Assembly (NCBI GenBank): GCA_017501245.1
Contig: JAFVXI010000018.1
Coordinates: 26,526 to 90,525 of the forward strand
DNA length: 64,000 nucleotides
Source of the DNA: Clostridia bacterium
Lineage (GTDB): Bacteria > Bacillota > Clostridia > Oscillospirales > CAG-272
Reading direction: 5' to 3'
The notes under the pieces are model-generated. The model was given only the letters and a program-made list of their open reading frames with translations, searched no databases and was not told the origin of the DNA. Position numbers and translations under genes: made by a program. Positions 4,890 through 60,222 of this stretch are shown one piece after another (position 1 is the first letter of the stretch; the number at the start of each line of letters is the position of its first letter).

Positions 4890-4930
4890 TATATATTTTT
4901 TATGATTTTATAAAATACAACGCTTTTAGG

Positions 4931-5493
4931 CGCTATGCATCCCAACCAAGGCCTTACGATCACGCGGCAGAGAGAAACGCCAGAGGCACTCTGTTACTGC
5001 GTGATCAACGCTCGCTCCGAACCGTACGCCTTCCAAAAAGGTTTCGTGCGCTATGCATCCTTACCAAGGCCTTACGATCACGCGGCAGGGAGAAACGCCA
5101 GAGGCACTCTGTTACTGCGTGATCAACGCTCGCTCCGAACCGTACGCCTTCCAAAAAGGTTTCGTGCGAGCTTTACCTACTGCGAGCGGTGACGCTCGTT
5201 CACTGGGAGTAAAAAAAGAGAGAGCAAATCAAACGAAATGCTCTCTTAAACTAAAGCTATTTAGTTCTCATGGTATTTTGGCGAGGAAGATTTTAGCGCA
5301 GAGCACAGGATTGCGGGCGACGCTGTAGTTACCTACTGCTAGCCCTAGCAATCGTGCGCTATGTGCAAAATGGTTCCTTACAAATGCCTTACGATCACGC
5401 GGCAGGGAGAAACGCCAGAGGCACTCTGCCATTGCGTGATCAACGCTCGCTCCAAACCGTACGCCTTTTATCAAGGCTTCGGGCGAGCTTTAC
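4931..5493. repeat. 118-bp palindromic repeat, two tandem copies plus one separate copy
   Basis: Copy 1 (4931-5048) and copy 2 (5049-about 5166) are directly tandem with a 118-bp period and differ at only a few positions. Copy 3 (about 5355-5493) is diverged at its left end. Each contains GATCACGC ... GCGTGATC inverted arms around a 30-40-nt centre, followed by a shared tail (AACGCTCGCTCC...CCGTACGCCTT). The third copy ends exactly at the stop codon of the 34-aa ORF. REP/MITE-like; no coding capacity supported. Confidence 0.8.
5211..5246 (-). terminator. terminator of the secreted-protein operon
   Basis: Minus-strand hairpin AGAGAGCA / TGCTCTCT with a 12-nt loop, followed by C and seven T. 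It lies about 245 bp past the small ORF, so the transcript would carry copy 3 of the 118-bp repeat in its 3' untranslated region. Confidence 0.75.
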
Positions 5494-13552: not shown

Positions 13553-13858
13553 GTCCGTGTGTCGGAAAGAGCCATACACCCCACCGTCGAAAATACCCTT
13601 ACATACGGTAACCCCCGTCTCTGCTCCGAACAGGCTCCCTCGCGGCACACGCGATAAACCGCTTAATGCTGCTTGGTTCCCCACCTGACATGGTTCACAG
13701 CCTCACGTTGCGCAAGACCAATTCCTCAACACAGCGAGCGAAGGTGCAGACTATACAAAAGTAATCCTCGGGCGGGGAATGAACCCCTGCTATAGCGGAT
13801 TTCAGGTACAAGGCACCGCTAATTCCCCGGCTGGTATGGCTCCGTCCGACACACGGAC
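13553..13858 (-). ncRNA. ffs: signal recognition particle RNA, large bacterial type
   Basis: About 306 nt on the minus strand. The termini pair exactly (CCGTGTGTCGGA near the 5' end with TCCGACACACGG near the 3' end). Domain IV shows GTCAGG, a GGAA tetraloop and AAGCAGC. The closing pairs next to the tetraloop are GG/CC rather than the common CC/GG, a compensated change. The length fits the long, Alu-domain-containing SRP RNA of Firmicutes. It sits just upstream of dnaX, its usual neighbour, and behind a near-consensus promoter. Confidence 0.93.
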
Positions 13859-14889: not shown

Positions 14890-15801
14890 ATGCTCTTAGT
14901 TGTTGATAAAAACCCCGAGAAGGCGTCGACCGTCGCCGAGATGCTCTACTATATGGGCTACCTCGCCTCGGCGATAGAGCCCGAGGAAGCACCCGGTGCC
15001 TGCGAGGAGGGGTTTTCTGCGATACTGTTTACCTCGCCCGATGGCTCGCCCGACGAGGCAGAGCTCGTTGAGCTTGTGAGGCTACTATACGATGCACCGA
15101 TATTTGCGATGACGCCAAGGCGTGCGAGAAGCGCAGGAGGAAAGTCTGACGCAATTCTTTACGGCAACGAAAAACGCCATAATACGACAACTATACTTAG
15201 CATATTTGAGCATTTAAGGCTTTCCGATACGAAGTTCAGCGCCTGCCACGGCGGGATAGACGAGATGAAGCTATGCACACTCGGAGCGCCCGAGCACCAT
15301 AGAAACACAAGAGTCGGAGCGCCACCGTCGGGTAGCGACCTTGGGGCTGAGGGCTACGACTATTCCCTCCCCTCACCGGGCGACAGGGCCCCCGGATGCG
15401 GCTCGCTGTTTGACGGGATAATAGACGGTGAGATCTTTTCGCCAAGGTCGGTAGAGAGGATATGCCTCTCGCTTGCTTTATACGGCAAAGAGCCGCTGGG
15501 ATCTTACACGGGTGGGGGTATAGACGCCTCGGTTGATGCGGCAGGGGTGTTCTGCTCGGGTGAGCGGATCCCCTTAACGAGGACAGAAACGATGATCGTG
15601 CGTTATCTCATCCACCGCTCGCCACGCTCTGCAACGGCAGAGGAGATCCTTGCGCACGCCTTCAGGCAAACGAGAGCCCCCGAGCCAACGAGCGTAAGAA
15701 CGCATATATCCATCATCAACAAGAAATTCCGTGAGACGGTCGGCAGACCCCTCACCCTCCCCTCCGACGACGGCACCTATTCCCTCTGTCAGCACAGCTG
15801 A
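14890..15801 (+). CDS. OmpR-type DNA-binding regulator with degenerate receiver
   Basis: 303 aa. The N-terminal 120 residues look like a response-regulator receiver (LLVVDKNPEKASTVAEMLYYMGY), but the third strand reads SAILFTSPDG, with no Asp at the phospho-acceptor position, and the conserved Lys is absent from FAMTPRRA. The linker (about 120-205) is low in complexity. Residues about 215-300 form an OmpR/PhoB winged helix (IPLTRTETMIVRYLIH...TSVRTHISIINKKFRE...DDGTYSL). It is probably a phosphorylation-independent regulator; no kinase gene is adjacent. The last codons and stop lie inside a perfect hairpin that begins the downstream array. Confidence 0.7.
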   Translation: MLLVVDKNPEKASTVAEMLYYMGYLASAIEPEEAPGACEEGFSAILFTSPDGSPDEAELVELVRLLYDAPIFAMTPRRARSAGGKSDAILYGNEKRHNTTTILSIFEHLRLSDTKFSACHGGIDEMKLCTLGAPEHHRNTRVGAPPSGSDLGAEGYDYSLPSPGDRAPGCGSLFDGIIDGEIFSPRSVERICLSLALYGKEPLGSYTGGGIDASVDAAGVFCSGERIPLTRTETMIVRYLIHRSPRSATAEEILAHAFRQTRAPEPTSVRTHISIINKKFRETVGRPLTLPSDDGTYSLCQHS

Positions 15802-15929
15802 CAGTATCACGCCTCTTTGCGGCAGAGCCGCAGTGAAGTTTGCCGTGGACGGCAAGTGAAGTTTCGCCAAATGCGAAGTGAAGTTTCGCCGGATGCGAAG
15901 TGAAGTTTTTGCTCGGGGCAAAAGTAATA
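15786..15929. repeat. hairpin array with GTGAAGTT spacers
   Basis: Six small hairpins in series: CTGTCAGC-ACA-GCTGACAG (15786-15804, covering the stop codon of the upstream gene), then TATCAC, TGCGGC-AGA-GCCGCA (15818-15832), and four more with TTGCCG, TTCGC, TTCGC and TTTTGC stems. From the second on they are separated by exactly GTGAAGTT. Stems are perfect but differ in sequence, while the spacer is constant. Confidence 0.85.
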
Positions 15930-15944
15930 GGTTGATGAACTTAT

Positions 15945-16443
15945 CCATCACGTTGCGCAGCAACATATCACGAAGCCCCTCGTGGCCTCCATAACACGCT
16001 TGCATAGCAAGCATATCACGTTGCGCAGCAACATATCACGAAGCCCCTTGTGGCTTCCATATCACGCTTGCATAGCAAGCATATCACGTTGCATAGCAAC
16101 ATATCACGAAACCCCTCGTGGCCTCCATATCACGCTTGCATAGCAAGCATATCACGTTGCGCAGCAACATATCACGAATCCCCTTGTGGCTTCCATATCA
16201 CGCTTGCATAGCAAGCATATCACGTTGCATAGCAACATATCACGAAGCCCCTCGTGGCTTCCATATCACGCTTGCATAGCAAGCATATCACGTTGCGCAG
16301 CAACATATCACGAACCCCCTCGTGGCCTCCATATCACGCTTGCGTAGCAAGCATATCACGTTGCATAGCAACATATCACGAAGCCCCTTGTGGCTTCTAT
16401 ATCACGCTTGCATAGCAAGCATATCACGTTGCGCAGCAACATA
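15945..16443. repeat. 68-bp tandem array of triple hairpins with ATATCAC spacers
   Basis: The period is exactly 68 bp: GTTGC stems start at 15952, 16020, 16088, 16156, 16224, 16292, 16360 and 16428. Each unit is ATATCAC-GTTGC(GCA or ATA)GCAAC, ATATCAC-GAAGCC-loop-GGCTTC (variable), ATATCAC-GCTTGC(ATA)GCAAGC. That is seven complete units and one extra hairpin, 22 hairpins in all. The GCA and ATA loops alternate over copies 2-8. There are no variable spacers, so it is not CRISPR. The array ends about 70 bp before the sigma-factor start. Confidence 0.95.
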
Positions 16444-16513: not shown

Positions 16514-17215
16514 ATGAAGGGGCTGATGGGTCTATTTTTAAAGTTTATCGGGCTGATACTCGGCATCGAGGAGGTGGGGAGCTTTCCACCGCCGCTTTGC
16601 CGTGAGGAGGAGGATGAGCTTTTCCAAAAAATGAAGGAGGGAGATAAGCGTGCGAGGGAGAGGATCATCGAGCATAATCTCAGGCTCGTGCCGCACATCA
16701 TAAAAAAGTACTATTCATCCTACGAGTCGCCCGACGAGCTGCTGTCGGTCGGGAGCTTCGGGCTGATCAAGGCGGCCGACAGCTTTAAATCCGGGATGGG
16801 AACTAGGTTTGCGACCTATGCGGCGAGGTGCATACAAAACGAGATGCTGATGCTCTTCCGCTCGAGGAAGAAGCTGCGCTACGAGGTTTCGCTCGGGGAT
16901 GAGATCGACGTCGATAAGGACGGAAATCCGCTCACCTATATGGACATAATCGCCTCGGAGGAGGACTTTGCGCAGGACATAGAGATGAAGGGCTATATCG
17001 AGCGGCTGAGGGCGGCGATAGACGAGGTGCTTGACGAGAGAGAGCGTGAGATAATCCGCCTGCGCTACGGGCTCTGCGGCTATCATCCCTTGACACAAAG
17101 AGAGGTTGCGGCAAGGCTCGGCATCTCACGCTCTTACGTATCCAGGATAGAAAAAAAGGCGCTCCTCGTCTTAAAGCGACGCCTCGGAGACTGCGGAGGG
17201 CTGTTTGAGGATTAG
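16514..17215 (+). CDS. sigK: sporulation sigma factor, SigK/SigE type
   Basis: 233 aa, intact. A short hydrophobic N-terminus (LFLKFIGLILGIEE) leads to the SFPPPL motif typical of SigK/SigE, then region 2 (about 50-120: NLRLVPHIIKKY, ELLSVGSFGLIKA, RFATYAARCIQNEMLM) and region 4 (about 177-225: EREREIIRLRYGLCG...GISRSYVSRIEKKAL). SRSYVSRIEK and the N-terminus favour SigK, the late mother-cell factor, over SigE; no spoIIGA protease gene is adjacent, which also argues against SigE. The gene is not split by a skin element. The ATG follows GGGAGGTG; a GCGGCA/TGCCGC hairpin (16479-16498) precedes the ribosome site. Confidence 0.75.
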   Translation: MKGLMGLFLKFIGLILGIEEVGSFPPPLCREEEDELFQKMKEGDKRARERIIEHNLRLVPHIIKKYYSSYESPDELLSVGSFGLIKAADSFKSGMGTRFATYAARCIQNEMLMLFRSRKKLRYEVSLGDEIDVDKDGNPLTYMDIIASEEDFAQDIEMKGYIERLRAAIDEVLDEREREIIRLRYGLCGYHPLTQREVAARLGISRSYVSRIEKKALLVLKRRLGDCGGLFED

Positions 17216-38186: not shown

Positions 38187-38320
38187 TTTATCCTCGGCGA
38201 GATAAATAGAAAAAGAGAGAATGAAATGGGTGATGCTCTTAGCGGAGAATTTGGAAAACACCGTTAAGTGCGGGCATCGCATTTGGCCGGTCAAATGCAA
38301 ATGGGCTAAGCCCAAACCCA

Positions 38321-38408
38321 TATACGTGAACCCCCAAAGCTCATTCTTCGCTTCGGGGAACCCCTATACGTGAACCCCCAAAGCTCATTCTTCGCTTCGG
38401 GGAACCCC
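38321..38408. repeat. 44-bp tandem palindromic repeat
   Basis: Two copies (38321 and 38365) of TATACGTGAACCCCCAAAGC plus TCATTCTTCGCTTCGGGGAACCCC. Each can form a CCCC(C)AAAGC/GCTTCGGGG hairpin with one mismatch. A diverged copy lies at about 21312-21357. Confidence 0.8.
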
Positions 38409-38470
38409 TATACAAGCAGAAAGAGCACACACGCAAGACGAAAAATCTTGTATGTATGCTCTTTTCTGTT

Positions 38471-38641
38471 AGTGAAGTTTTCGCTACTGCGAAAGTGAAG
38501 TTGTGCTACGCACAGTGAAGTTGCTCACAGGGGCTCGCAGTGAAGTTAAGTTTGCCTACTTTGCCAAAGGCAAAACTTCACTATCCGCAGGATAACTTCA
38601 CTTACGAAGTAAACTTCACTTGCCCATAAGGGCAAACTTAG
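38471..38641. repeat. mirrored hairpin array with GTGAAGTT then AACTTCAC spacers
   Basis: Seven hairpins: TTTCGC-TACT-GCGAAA, TGTGC-TAC-GCACA, a weak TGC..GCA, then TTTGCC-AAA-GGCAAA, TATCC-GCA-GGATA, TTAC-GAA-GTAA and TTGCCC-ATAA-GGGCAA. Spacers before the fourth hairpin read GTGAAGTT (four times). Those after it read AACTTCAC (three times), the exact complement. The whole is thus a mirror of spacers around unrelated small stems. Confidence 0.9.
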
Positions 38642-38643
38642 TT

Positions 38644-38698
38644 TTAGCGTGTTCTCCGTTAAGGATAACACGCTAAACGTTTCATTCTCTCTTTTTTG
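38644..38698 (+). terminator. terminator-like hairpin at the right end of the cassette
   Basis: TTTAGCGTGTT pairs with AACACGCTAAA across a 13-nt loop (38644-38678). T-rich sequence follows (TTTCATTCTCTCTTTTTT), which doubles as the right inverted repeat. Confidence 0.6.
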
Positions 38699-41390: not shown

Positions 41391-42653
41391 TCAGATGCCG
41401 AAAAGCTCCTTTATCTTATTCTCGTCGATGCCCGAGCCGATAACGCAGAGCCTGCCTATCGTGCCCGCCGTGCCGTATCTGACGTCGATGCCGTCGGGCA
41501 CGTAGTCGAAGTGTATCCATCTGCCGTCGGTTGCGGCAACTATTCCCTTCGCTCTTAAAACCATACCGAAGTCGGAGGACTCGTCAAACTCACCGAGCGC
41601 CGCCTCGATAGCCTCGGGGGTGAACTTCTTCGTCGTTTCTGCGCCGAAGCTCGAGAACACCTCGTCAGCGTGATGATGGCCGTGCTCGTGGCCGTGGCAT
41701 CCGCAGCCGCACTCCTCGTCGTGGTCGTGGTGGTGATGCTCGTGATCGTGGCATCCGCAGCCGCACTCCTCATCGTGATCGTGGTGGTGATGCTCGTGAT
41801 CGTGGTGGCCGTGACAGCACTCCTCGTCGTGGTCGTGGTGGTGATGCTCATGCTCGTGATGACCGTGACAGCACTCCTCATCGTGGTCGTGGTGGTGATG
41901 CTCGTGCTCGTGATGACCGCAGCCGCACTCCTCGCCATGGTCGTGGTGGTGATGCTCGTGCTCGTGGTGGCCGTGACAGCACTCCTCGTCGTGGTCGTGG
42001 TGGTGATGATGGTGCTCGCGATGCTCCTCCTCGAGCTTAGAGATGGCGTCCTCAAGGGTGTTCTTATGCTCCATAGCCGCAAGCACGTCCTTGCCGTCGA
42101 GGCTGTCCCAGGGGGTGACGATGATCTCGGCCGTGGCGTTATGCTCTCTTATAAGAGCGACTGCCTCCTCTATCCTCGACTCCTTTGCAACGTCGGTGTG
42201 CGAGAGGACGATGGCAGAGGCGTTTGCTATCTGATCGTTATAGAACTCGCCGAAGTTCTTCATATACATACGCACCTTCGTAGCGTCCGCAACGGTGGTG
42301 AAGCAGTTTAAGACGTAGTCCTCACGCTCGACGTTTCCGACAGCCTTGATAACGTCGGAGAGCTTGCCGACGCCCGAGGGCTCGATAATGATCCTGTCGG
42401 GGCTATACTCCTCAAGCACCTTTGCAAGTGCGGCGGTGAAATCGCCGACGAGGGAGCAGCAGATGCAGCCCGAATTCATCTCGGTGATCTCGATGCCCGC
42501 ATCCTGAAGGAAGCCGCCGTCAATGCCGATCTCGCCAAACTCGTTTTCGATGAGGACGACCTTCTCGCCGCTGTACGCCTCCTTGATGAGCTTTTTTATA
42601 AGAGTGGTCTTTCCCGCACCGAGAAAGCCCGAGAATATGTCTATCTTGGTCAT
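41391..42653 (-). CDS. CobW/ZNG-type zinc GTPase metallochaperone with six His/Cys repeats
   Basis: 420 aa. GTPase domain with Walker A GFLGAGKTTLI (9-19), the metal motif CICC in MNSGCICCSLVGDF, and SHTDVAK (T in place of N in the NKxD element). Residues about 213-328 hold six tandem 18-residue units of the form HHHHDHDEECCHGHHEHE (variants with ECGCGCHDHE), then the CobW C-terminal domain (MVLRAKGIV...WIHFDYVPDG). COG0523 GTPases deliver zinc, cobalt or nickel to client enzymes; the insert should buffer many metal ions. The repeats are also visible in DNA as 54-bp units. Confidence 0.92.
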   Translation of the reverse strand: MTKIDIFSGFLGAGKTTLIKKLIKEAYSGEKVVLIENEFGEIGIDGGFLQDAGIEITEMNSGCICCSLVGDFTAALAKVLEEYSPDRIIIEPSGVGKLSDVIKAVGNVEREDYVLNCFTTVADATKVRMYMKNFGEFYNDQIANASAIVLSHTDVAKESRIEEAVALIREHNATAEIIVTPWDSLDGKDVLAAMEHKNTLEDAISKLEEEHREHHHHHHDHDEECCHGHHEHEHHHHDHGEECGCGHHEHEHHHHDHDEECCHGHHEHEHHHHDHDEECCHGHHDHEHHHHDHDEECGCGCHDHEHHHHDHDEECGCGCHGHEHGHHHADEVFSSFGAETTKKFTPEAIEAALGEFDESSDFGMVLRAKGIVAATDGRWIHFDYVPDGIDVRYGTAGTIGRLCVIGSGIDENKIKELFGI

Positions 42654-51004: not shown

Positions 51005-51232
51005 CAAAAATAAAAAACGCCCTTCGTCCATGGGACGAAAAGCTCGCGGTACCACCCAAATTCGAGGGCTATGCCCTCCTCTGTCCGCTATAAGGGGCAG
51101 CCCCTCGACTCGTCGCCGAATGCTAACGGAGCGGAAATGCAGCGGTCGCAAGCGGCTCGCACCAAGCGCCGCCTCTCTGAATGCTGGGGTCTGCAATATT
51201 CTCCGGTCAATGCACCAAAAAAATATTTATAT
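51005..51232 (-). ncRNA. T-box riboswitch of serS
   Basis: Minus-strand leader of about 225 nt. It has the conserved T-box element GGGTGGTACCGCG (51057-51045), an AGAGAGGCGG stem-I segment, and a terminator (TTCGTCC...GGACGAA followed by GGGCGTTTTTT) that the T-box competes with. Senses uncharged tRNA-Ser. The specifier is probably a TCC triplet in the stem-I 3' strand, but its exact position was not settled by eye. Confidence 0.93.
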
Positions 51233-59970: not shown

Positions 59971-60222
59971 ATAAATTAAAGCGATGATGGGAAAAAGTAG
60001 CGTATTTTGCCAAAAGACAGAAAGCTGCCGGCTGATGAGAGGCGCGTGAGGCTGATGCGTGAATACATCCCTGAGTGCGTACCGAAGCTCCGACCCGGAG
60101 TGCGTAGGCTACGACGGTCTGCCCGTTACAGCATTTATGGAGGCGCAGCAAATGCTGCGTGAAGCAAGGTGGTACCGCGGATCTTTCGCCCTTGGGATAT
60201 GTTCCCGAGGGCTTTTCTTTTT
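59971..60222 (+). ncRNA. T-box riboswitch of tyrS
   Basis: Leader of about 250 nt with the T-box element AAGGTGGTACCGCGG (60166-60180) and a terminator (GCCCTTGGGA pairing with TCCCGAGGGC, followed by TTTTCTTTTT to about 60222). A tyrosine specifier TAC lies at 60064-60066 in GAATACAT. Uncharged tRNA-Tyr would stabilise the antiterminator. Confidence 0.95.

Follow-up and report, generated by a model that had tools for sequence, protein, structure and literature searches.

The window, i.e. the whole stretch of 64,000 nucleotides analysed here, contains a dense array of small hairpins between a regulator gene and a gene for a sporulation sigma factor (Table 1). The array is antisense to both flanking genes. 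Assignment of the downstream gene to the SigK type relies on NF004471, and its score with TIGR02846 is 251.6 bits, under that model's cutoff. A second element of related make-up lies further downstream, where the Rfam model Gut-1 (see below) scores 54.6 bits at 38644-38570 on the minus strand, above the gathering score, and 30.7 bits at 38470-38526 on the plus strand. It adjoins a 44-bp direct repeat (38315-38413, 2.2 copies, 98% matches), pieces of which are found again beside other elements of the host genome. The window also harbours nested tandem repeats of 54 bp (6.2 copies) and 162 bp (1.9 copies) at 41683-42018, a tandem duplication of 118 bp at 4930-5168 (2.0 copies, 97% matches), a bacterial large SRP RNA on the minus strand at 13572-13839 (174.6 bits), and T-box leaders at 51028-51219 and 59975-60196, one scoring 98.5, above the gathering score of 93, and one 83.3, below it.

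Table 1 Features of the window at the hairpin array and at the second element
Feature	Position	Strand	Basis
Regulator gene, Trans_reg_C domain, upstream of array	14890..15801	+	PF00486, E=1.6e-6
Facing array, word GTGAAGT, directly 3' of regulator gene	15831..15911	+	Gut-1 44.7 bits, below gathering score 50
Array, word GTGATAT	15945..16443	-	Best Gut-1 match 44.0 bits, below gathering score
Array unit starts	15952, 16020, 16088, 16156, 16224, 16292, 16360, 16428		Spacing always 68
Sporulation sigma factor gene, SigK type, downstream of array	16514..17215	+	NF004471 262.2 bits, cutoff 252
Second element: GTGAAGT half-array (+), ACTTCAC half-array, end hairpin GCGTG...CACGC	38466..38673		Sequence and Gut-1 matches

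Tandem Repeats Finder describes the array with a period of 68, 7.3 copies, 92% matches and 0% indels (15947-16443). Together with the unit positions, this confirms the original prediction of seven 68-bp units plus one hairpin, adding up to 22 hairpins in less than 500 bp. Each unit comprises three hairpins with the plus-strand stems GTTGC, GAAGCC and GCTTGC, separated by the word ATATCAC, which reads GTGATAT on the minus strand. The separator had been called almost invariant, and it is exact in 20 of the 21 internal linkers, the sole internal deviation being ATAACAC in unit 1. Across the eight copies loop 1 reads GCA, GCA, ATA, GCA, ATA, GCA, ATA, GCA, so that the alternation proposed for copies 2-8 is right. 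Counting all short loops of the array, six of 15 are of the GNA type and nine are ATA. Mean identity between copies is highest at lag 2 (0.962, five comparisons), followed by lag 3 (0.945, four comparisons) and lag 1 (0.929, six comparisons). This order is in line with a 136-bp unit, and the suggested higher-order unit and growth by unequal exchange fit the signal. The stems themselves behave unequally. All 15 copies of hairpins 1 and 3 have perfect stems, as expected from the prediction of perfect or near-perfect hairpins, whereas hairpin 2 has a perfect stem in only three of seven units (2, 5 and 7). In units 1, 3, 4 and 6 this stem has one or two plus-strand changes without compensation (columns 24 and 36). 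Because the hairpin 2 stems have changed, the claim that substitutions fall in loops is true for two hairpins of three. Uncompensated stem changes had been named among the signs that would refute the proposal, and within the window array they do occur, in hairpin 2 only.

Comparison with congeners bears on the age of the array. The SigK-type gene was found in 27 of 39 congeners searched (E<=1e-60), and at 18 of these 27 loci it is preceded by the same regulator, with an intergenic stretch of 50-236 bp that contains 0-2 hairpins and no array. In the window, the interval between regulator and SigK-type gene amounts to 712 bp with 26 hairpins, counted in the same way. At the other nine loci the regulator was not found within the stretch examined. 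Given these 18 syntenic loci without it, the array is recent at this locus. Its absence there would also suit a reading without any function of its own, in which replication slippage and template switching made and perfected the hairpins, leaving neutral tandem DNA after an old insertion. The near-perfect stems, the 136-bp signal and the uncompensated changes in hairpin 2 speak in its favour. This reading, conversely, sits poorly with linkers that stay constant while stems change, both in this array and among the many stems that go with GTGATAT elsewhere, and with the agreement between words and proteins across genomes (see below). We regard this neutral reading as rather improbable.

The layout had been described as that of no named element. 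This does not hold, as the minus strand of the array is matched by Rfam Gut-1 (RF01706), a family of three hairpins with the linker GUGAAAU that is modelled as RNA. In cmscan the array aligns over the full length of the model (1-77) with GUGAUAU as the word, and the three hairpins with GUGAAAU-like linkers occur in the Gut-1 order. Still, the best match misses the gathering cutoff of 50 bits. The array shares with Gut-1 the short hairpins, a seven-letter linker starting with GUGA, the minus-strand orientation and an occurrence in gut bacteria. It differs in having GUGAUAU instead of GUGAAAU, 22 tandem hairpins instead of three, and scores of at most 44.0 bits. The window array is therefore a divergent, below-cutoff relative of Gut-1. 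In the portions of Weinberg et al. 2010 consulted, Gut-1 is rated as certainly RNA, not cis-regulatory and restricted to the human gut (PMC2864571). A search of the open-access literature for "Gut-1 RNA" returned no paper, and Gut-1 combined with Rfam and hairpin returned PMC2864571 only.

Arrays of this kind are widespread, which had been proposed as a check of the prediction and came out in its favour. In the host assembly (1.94 Mb, 73% complete), a threshold of E<=1 gives 63 Gut-1 matches. Of these, 45 reach E<=1e-3, among them seven within the window array, and 10 exceed the cutoff. A second GTGATAT array in the same assembly is located between genes that read as deoC and purine nucleoside phosphorylase. 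Matches at E<=1e-3 are present in 46 of 59 genomes, host included, with a maximum of 49 per genome. Three spaced GTGATAT words were found in at least 118 stretches of GTDB genomes, and 17 stretches in viral contigs match the same pattern. At 52 loci classed as Clostridia-like by their record titles, 74.1% of 174 unique segments between the words are palindromic, compared to 8.1% after shuffling, while the remaining 66 loci of the same scan show 5.9% of 153 segments compared to 6.0%. Thus, GTGATAT alone does not bring hairpins, but in the Clostridia-like group it comes with them. The word is met in other settings as well. An approximately 25-bp tandem repeat, CCTCGCACATTTGGCAGGGTGATAT, contains it at L106 2989-3076 (G000:C17), and many contigs of the Prevotellaceae MAG Hm464_bin115 carry a hairpin-free tandem repeat of the GTGATAT-AGTCATATCAAACACC type (L125, L131, L154, L158, L177, L179, L202, L209, L216, L234 and L239).

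Whether the arrays act as DNA or RNA was addressed via stem and loop statistics. Ten linker words were tried, giving 257 unique hairpins read on the GTGA strand, related hairpins among them not being independent. Their stems contain 1406 Watson-Crick, 11 G.U and 19 A.C pairs. As a control, the acceptor stems of 55 distinct tRNAs contain 366, 18 and 0, respectively. Read on the GTGA strand, 75 of 142 triloops are TNC and none is GNA, and 50 of 78 tetraloops are TNNC and none is GNNA. C-G closes the loop in 191 of the 207 clean hairpins. On the opposite strand, the loops become GNA and GNNA, closed by C-G. The d(GNNA) tetraloop is a stable motif of DNA. The same applies to the d(GNA) triloop with a C-G closing pair, for which the sections of PMC5815330 consulted give a GCA example melting at 68.9 degrees, and at 48.9 degrees with the pair reversed. 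Vienna folding energies do not tell the two strands apart for triloops, with a mean difference of 0.0 under DNA and 0.09 under RNA parameters; for tetraloops the mean difference is -0.27 kcal/mol (DNA) and -0.54 (RNA). In summary, by their pairing and loop statistics the arrays resemble DNA more than RNA, which favours a DNA role without proving it and sets the wider array set apart from Gut-1 as an Rfam RNA.

A structured RNA had been among the suggested roles. It would take the form of a minus-strand transcript, either a Gut-1-type RNA or a hairpin-rich UTR, whose single-stranded GUGAUAU linkers bind a host factor. The standing of Gut-1 in Rfam and its rating by Weinberg et al. support such a reading. 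In addition, RNAalifold on eight leaders with the word TGAATTG (see below) predicts 43 pairs, 13 of which are changed on both sides, at an unfavourable covariation energy term (+0.5), and arrays follow a gene end in the sense direction in L160 and L124 (both read by eye) and in L002. The covariation proposed as a check is hence seen in part: 79 distinct stems go with the single word GTGATAT while linkers stay constant and some leader pairs change on both sides, but hairpin 2 of the window is uncompensated. The case for RNA is weakened by the lack of a G.U excess relative to tRNA. Moreover, GNRA and GNYA on the other strand count 28 and 22, lacking the R preference of RNA tetraloops, half-arrays point both ways, and the array of the window runs antisense to its two neighbouring genes. 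A transcript as the functional form thus appears unlikely.

Another suggestion concerned a hairpin substrate for a REP-type transposase acting in trans. REP elements, which are linked to RAYT (Y1) transposases, combine short intergenic palindromes with a conserved word next to them, and their palindromes are conserved between copies. The arrays resemble them as short intergenic palindromes beside a fixed word, dispersed in the genome and with DNA-type loops. They differ in that stems vary between copies while linkers are constant. The Y1 domain PF01797 occurs in 14 of 46 Gut-1-bearing and five of 13 Gut-1-free genomes (Fisher p=0.74), and it is missing from the host assembly (73% complete) and from the array-rich genomes G027 (49 Gut-1 matches), G038 (33) and G058 (48). 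Because PF01797 is neither associated with Gut-1 nor present in these assemblies, the REP/RAYT link was rejected, and movement by such an enzyme is very improbable.

A different gene family does accompany the arrays. GTGATAT loci in other Clostridia show facing half-arrays by the 3' end of an rlmD-like gene, followed by a small S23/IVP-like gene. The S23/IVP family (PF05635, TIGR02436) forms a four-helix bundle; the closest solved chain by sequence is the uncharacterised protein 2rld, and the parts of PMC4990558 consulted state that S23p proteins have no known function. PF05635 is found in 47 of the 59 genomes. Gut-1 and PF05635 occur together in 42 of these, Gut-1 alone in four (G001, G016, G030 and G049), the S23/IVP gene alone in five (G003, G013, G039, G044 and G048) and neither in eight (p=2e-4). 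Outside the genus the corresponding numbers are 11, 1, 3 and 8 (p=0.003). Among the literature matches listed (open-access, without supplements), none links Gut-1 or hairpin arrays to S23/IVP genes.

For a closer look, 80 S23/IVP genes were examined, out of the best 83 of 128 matches listed. At least four C-G-closed hairpins within 450 bp upstream are present at 54 of 72 genes of the host's order, compared to four of 27 control genes; eight genes with less than the needed 250 bp of upstream sequence were dropped. Elsewhere in the phylum the same search gave 0 of 21 S23/IVP genes, several of which share a genome (one masked locus was dropped). Directly before the gene, the arrays are made of two halves with complementary words: hairpins joined by the word, usually within a closing stem, are followed by a half-array joined by the reverse complement. 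An inverted repeat of at least 9 bp enclosing 50-220 bp is present at 62 of 71 genes with at least 300 bp upstream, compared to about 4% in shuffles (means of three). Most of these repeats span 80-125 bp with differing arm sequences, and some coincide with the words or with portions of tRNA genes. At least three hairpins also occur in 16 of 73 downstream regions of 250-300 bp, so that the upstream side does not have the hairpins entirely to itself. Copies of arrays far outnumber S23/IVP genes. No S23/IVP gene was noticed beside the second element of the window.

Among the S23/IVP genes, 17 of 54 with an array and five of 18 without one have a tRNA gene in the 450 bp before them, compared to none of the 27 controls, and the rlmD-end motif precedes six of 80. 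At L188, arrays at 5220 and 6553 start with nearly the same stretch resembling an rlmD 3' end, one after an rlmD-like gene and one elsewhere, so that this stretch looks like a favoured insertion site. In L330, L333, L340, L344 and L363 the first part of the element is nearly an inverted copy of the rlmD coding letters before it. Gene end and element thereby form one hairpin, the stem of which follows the host codons in most of those loci. Two phage records, both unannotated human-faecal scaffolds, match the S23/IVP protein, with six upstream hairpins in L401 and three in L402; GTGATAT words are visible in the latter.

Outside the order, a 7-mer occurs at least three times within 150 bp upstream of six and downstream of eight of 21 S23/IVP genes, compared to 0 of 27 control upstreams, with three of the 21 being near-identical upstream regions inside apparent 23S rRNA. 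This is only suggestive of short direct repeats accompanying these genes. The three regions in question (L391, L397 and L399, G114) have no hairpin array and represent the classical intervening-sequence setting. On plasmid pTS1 of Treponema saccharophilum (L403), purine repeats GGAAAGGTGAAAG and then pyrimidine repeats precede an annotated four helix bundle gene, i.e. a layout of word and complement without hairpins. Tandem heptamers in variable number just upstream of an S23p start codon are described in the sections of PMC4990558 consulted, so that short words in repeated form could be a common feature next to S23 genes. In the same sections, the Xanthomonas campestris S23p forms a ring built from five four-helix bundles, an assembly that would suit several words at once.

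The word itself goes with the protein. Using 16 words, picked after the upstream hairpin survey, 47 of the 80 S23/IVP genes carry one of them at least four times within 400 bp. In 33 of these 47 the best S23/IVP hit from another genome has the same word, compared to a mean of 3.5 and a maximum of 11 in 1000 label shuffles, and several of the mismatches are one-letter neighbours. Such agreement can come from linkage alone. Five best-hit pairs span GTDB families at 90-93% identity in the matched domain (L318/L321, L335/L309, L336/L338, L358/L357 and L359/L344), compared to 57-68% for the sigma factor among members of the genus. The stretch shared by homologous elements is about 600 bp long, e.g. 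from -286 to +329 around the match start in L318/L321. Misbinned short MAG contigs would mimic transfer.

For the window array, the bridge is provided by L337 of the congener G024, where the rlmD end is followed by a CGTGATAT half-array, a ATATCACG half-array and an S23/IVP gene. The window array shares this word as well as the C and G that flank it. PF05635 genes preceded by GTGATAT leaders are found in L296, L306 and L337. The window array is thus alike to the S23/IVP elements of the order in its kind of hairpins and in the shared word. Unlike these elements it has no S23/IVP gene, and unlike rRNA intervening sequences it is located between protein genes rather than in 23S rRNA. The two PF05635 matches of the host assembly (73% complete) are on contigs C7 and C13 while the window is on C10, and neither was seen with a GTGATAT leader. 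A facing half-array with the reverse complement of GTGATAT is also absent at the window, the facing array there having its own word.

We put even chances on the window array being a gene-less, tandem-expanded relative of an S23/IVP element leader. Under this explanation the S23/IVP protein would recognise the word, probably several words at a time, and the hairpins would hold the words single-stranded and at even spacing, with DNA a more probable form than RNA. Whole S23/IVP elements would move, and both they and gene-less copies would spread, with tRNA gene ends and the rlmD end as frequent sites. Upstream of the SigK-type gene, unequal exchange or slippage may then have enlarged one array in the window to 22 hairpins. 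The missing S23/IVP gene at the window array, the genomes that carry either Gut-1 or an S23/IVP gene but not both, the predominance of ATA over GNA among the short loops of the window array, the array-less S23/IVP genes outside the order, and tRNA genes that are equally common by array-less and array-bearing S23/IVP genes count against the leader reading. A protein-binding array, one of the roles originally suggested, is nonetheless the leading reading here; from the sequence comparisons we infer that the S23/IVP protein may bind its word.

The array kind as such was already known as Gut-1, and what is new here is the link of Gut-1-type arrays to S23/IVP genes. In the more general and more tentative form of the proposal, which we hold at somewhat below even odds, S23/IVP proteins would be word-specific nucleic-acid binders, each element having its own seven-letter address on a scaffold of DNA mini-hairpins. 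The 'Gut-1 RNA' would then be the front half of selfish elements and would work mostly in the form of single-stranded DNA, with gene-less arrays serving as platforms recognised in trans. As far as the consulted text of PMC2864571 tells, Gut-1 has been a motif without known role since 2010, and the S23/IVP link merges two puzzles into one. If the word is indeed the address of the protein, mobile-looking elements that pair a word with a protein would emerge as a small class, and Gut-1 as an Rfam RNA family would move towards DNA.
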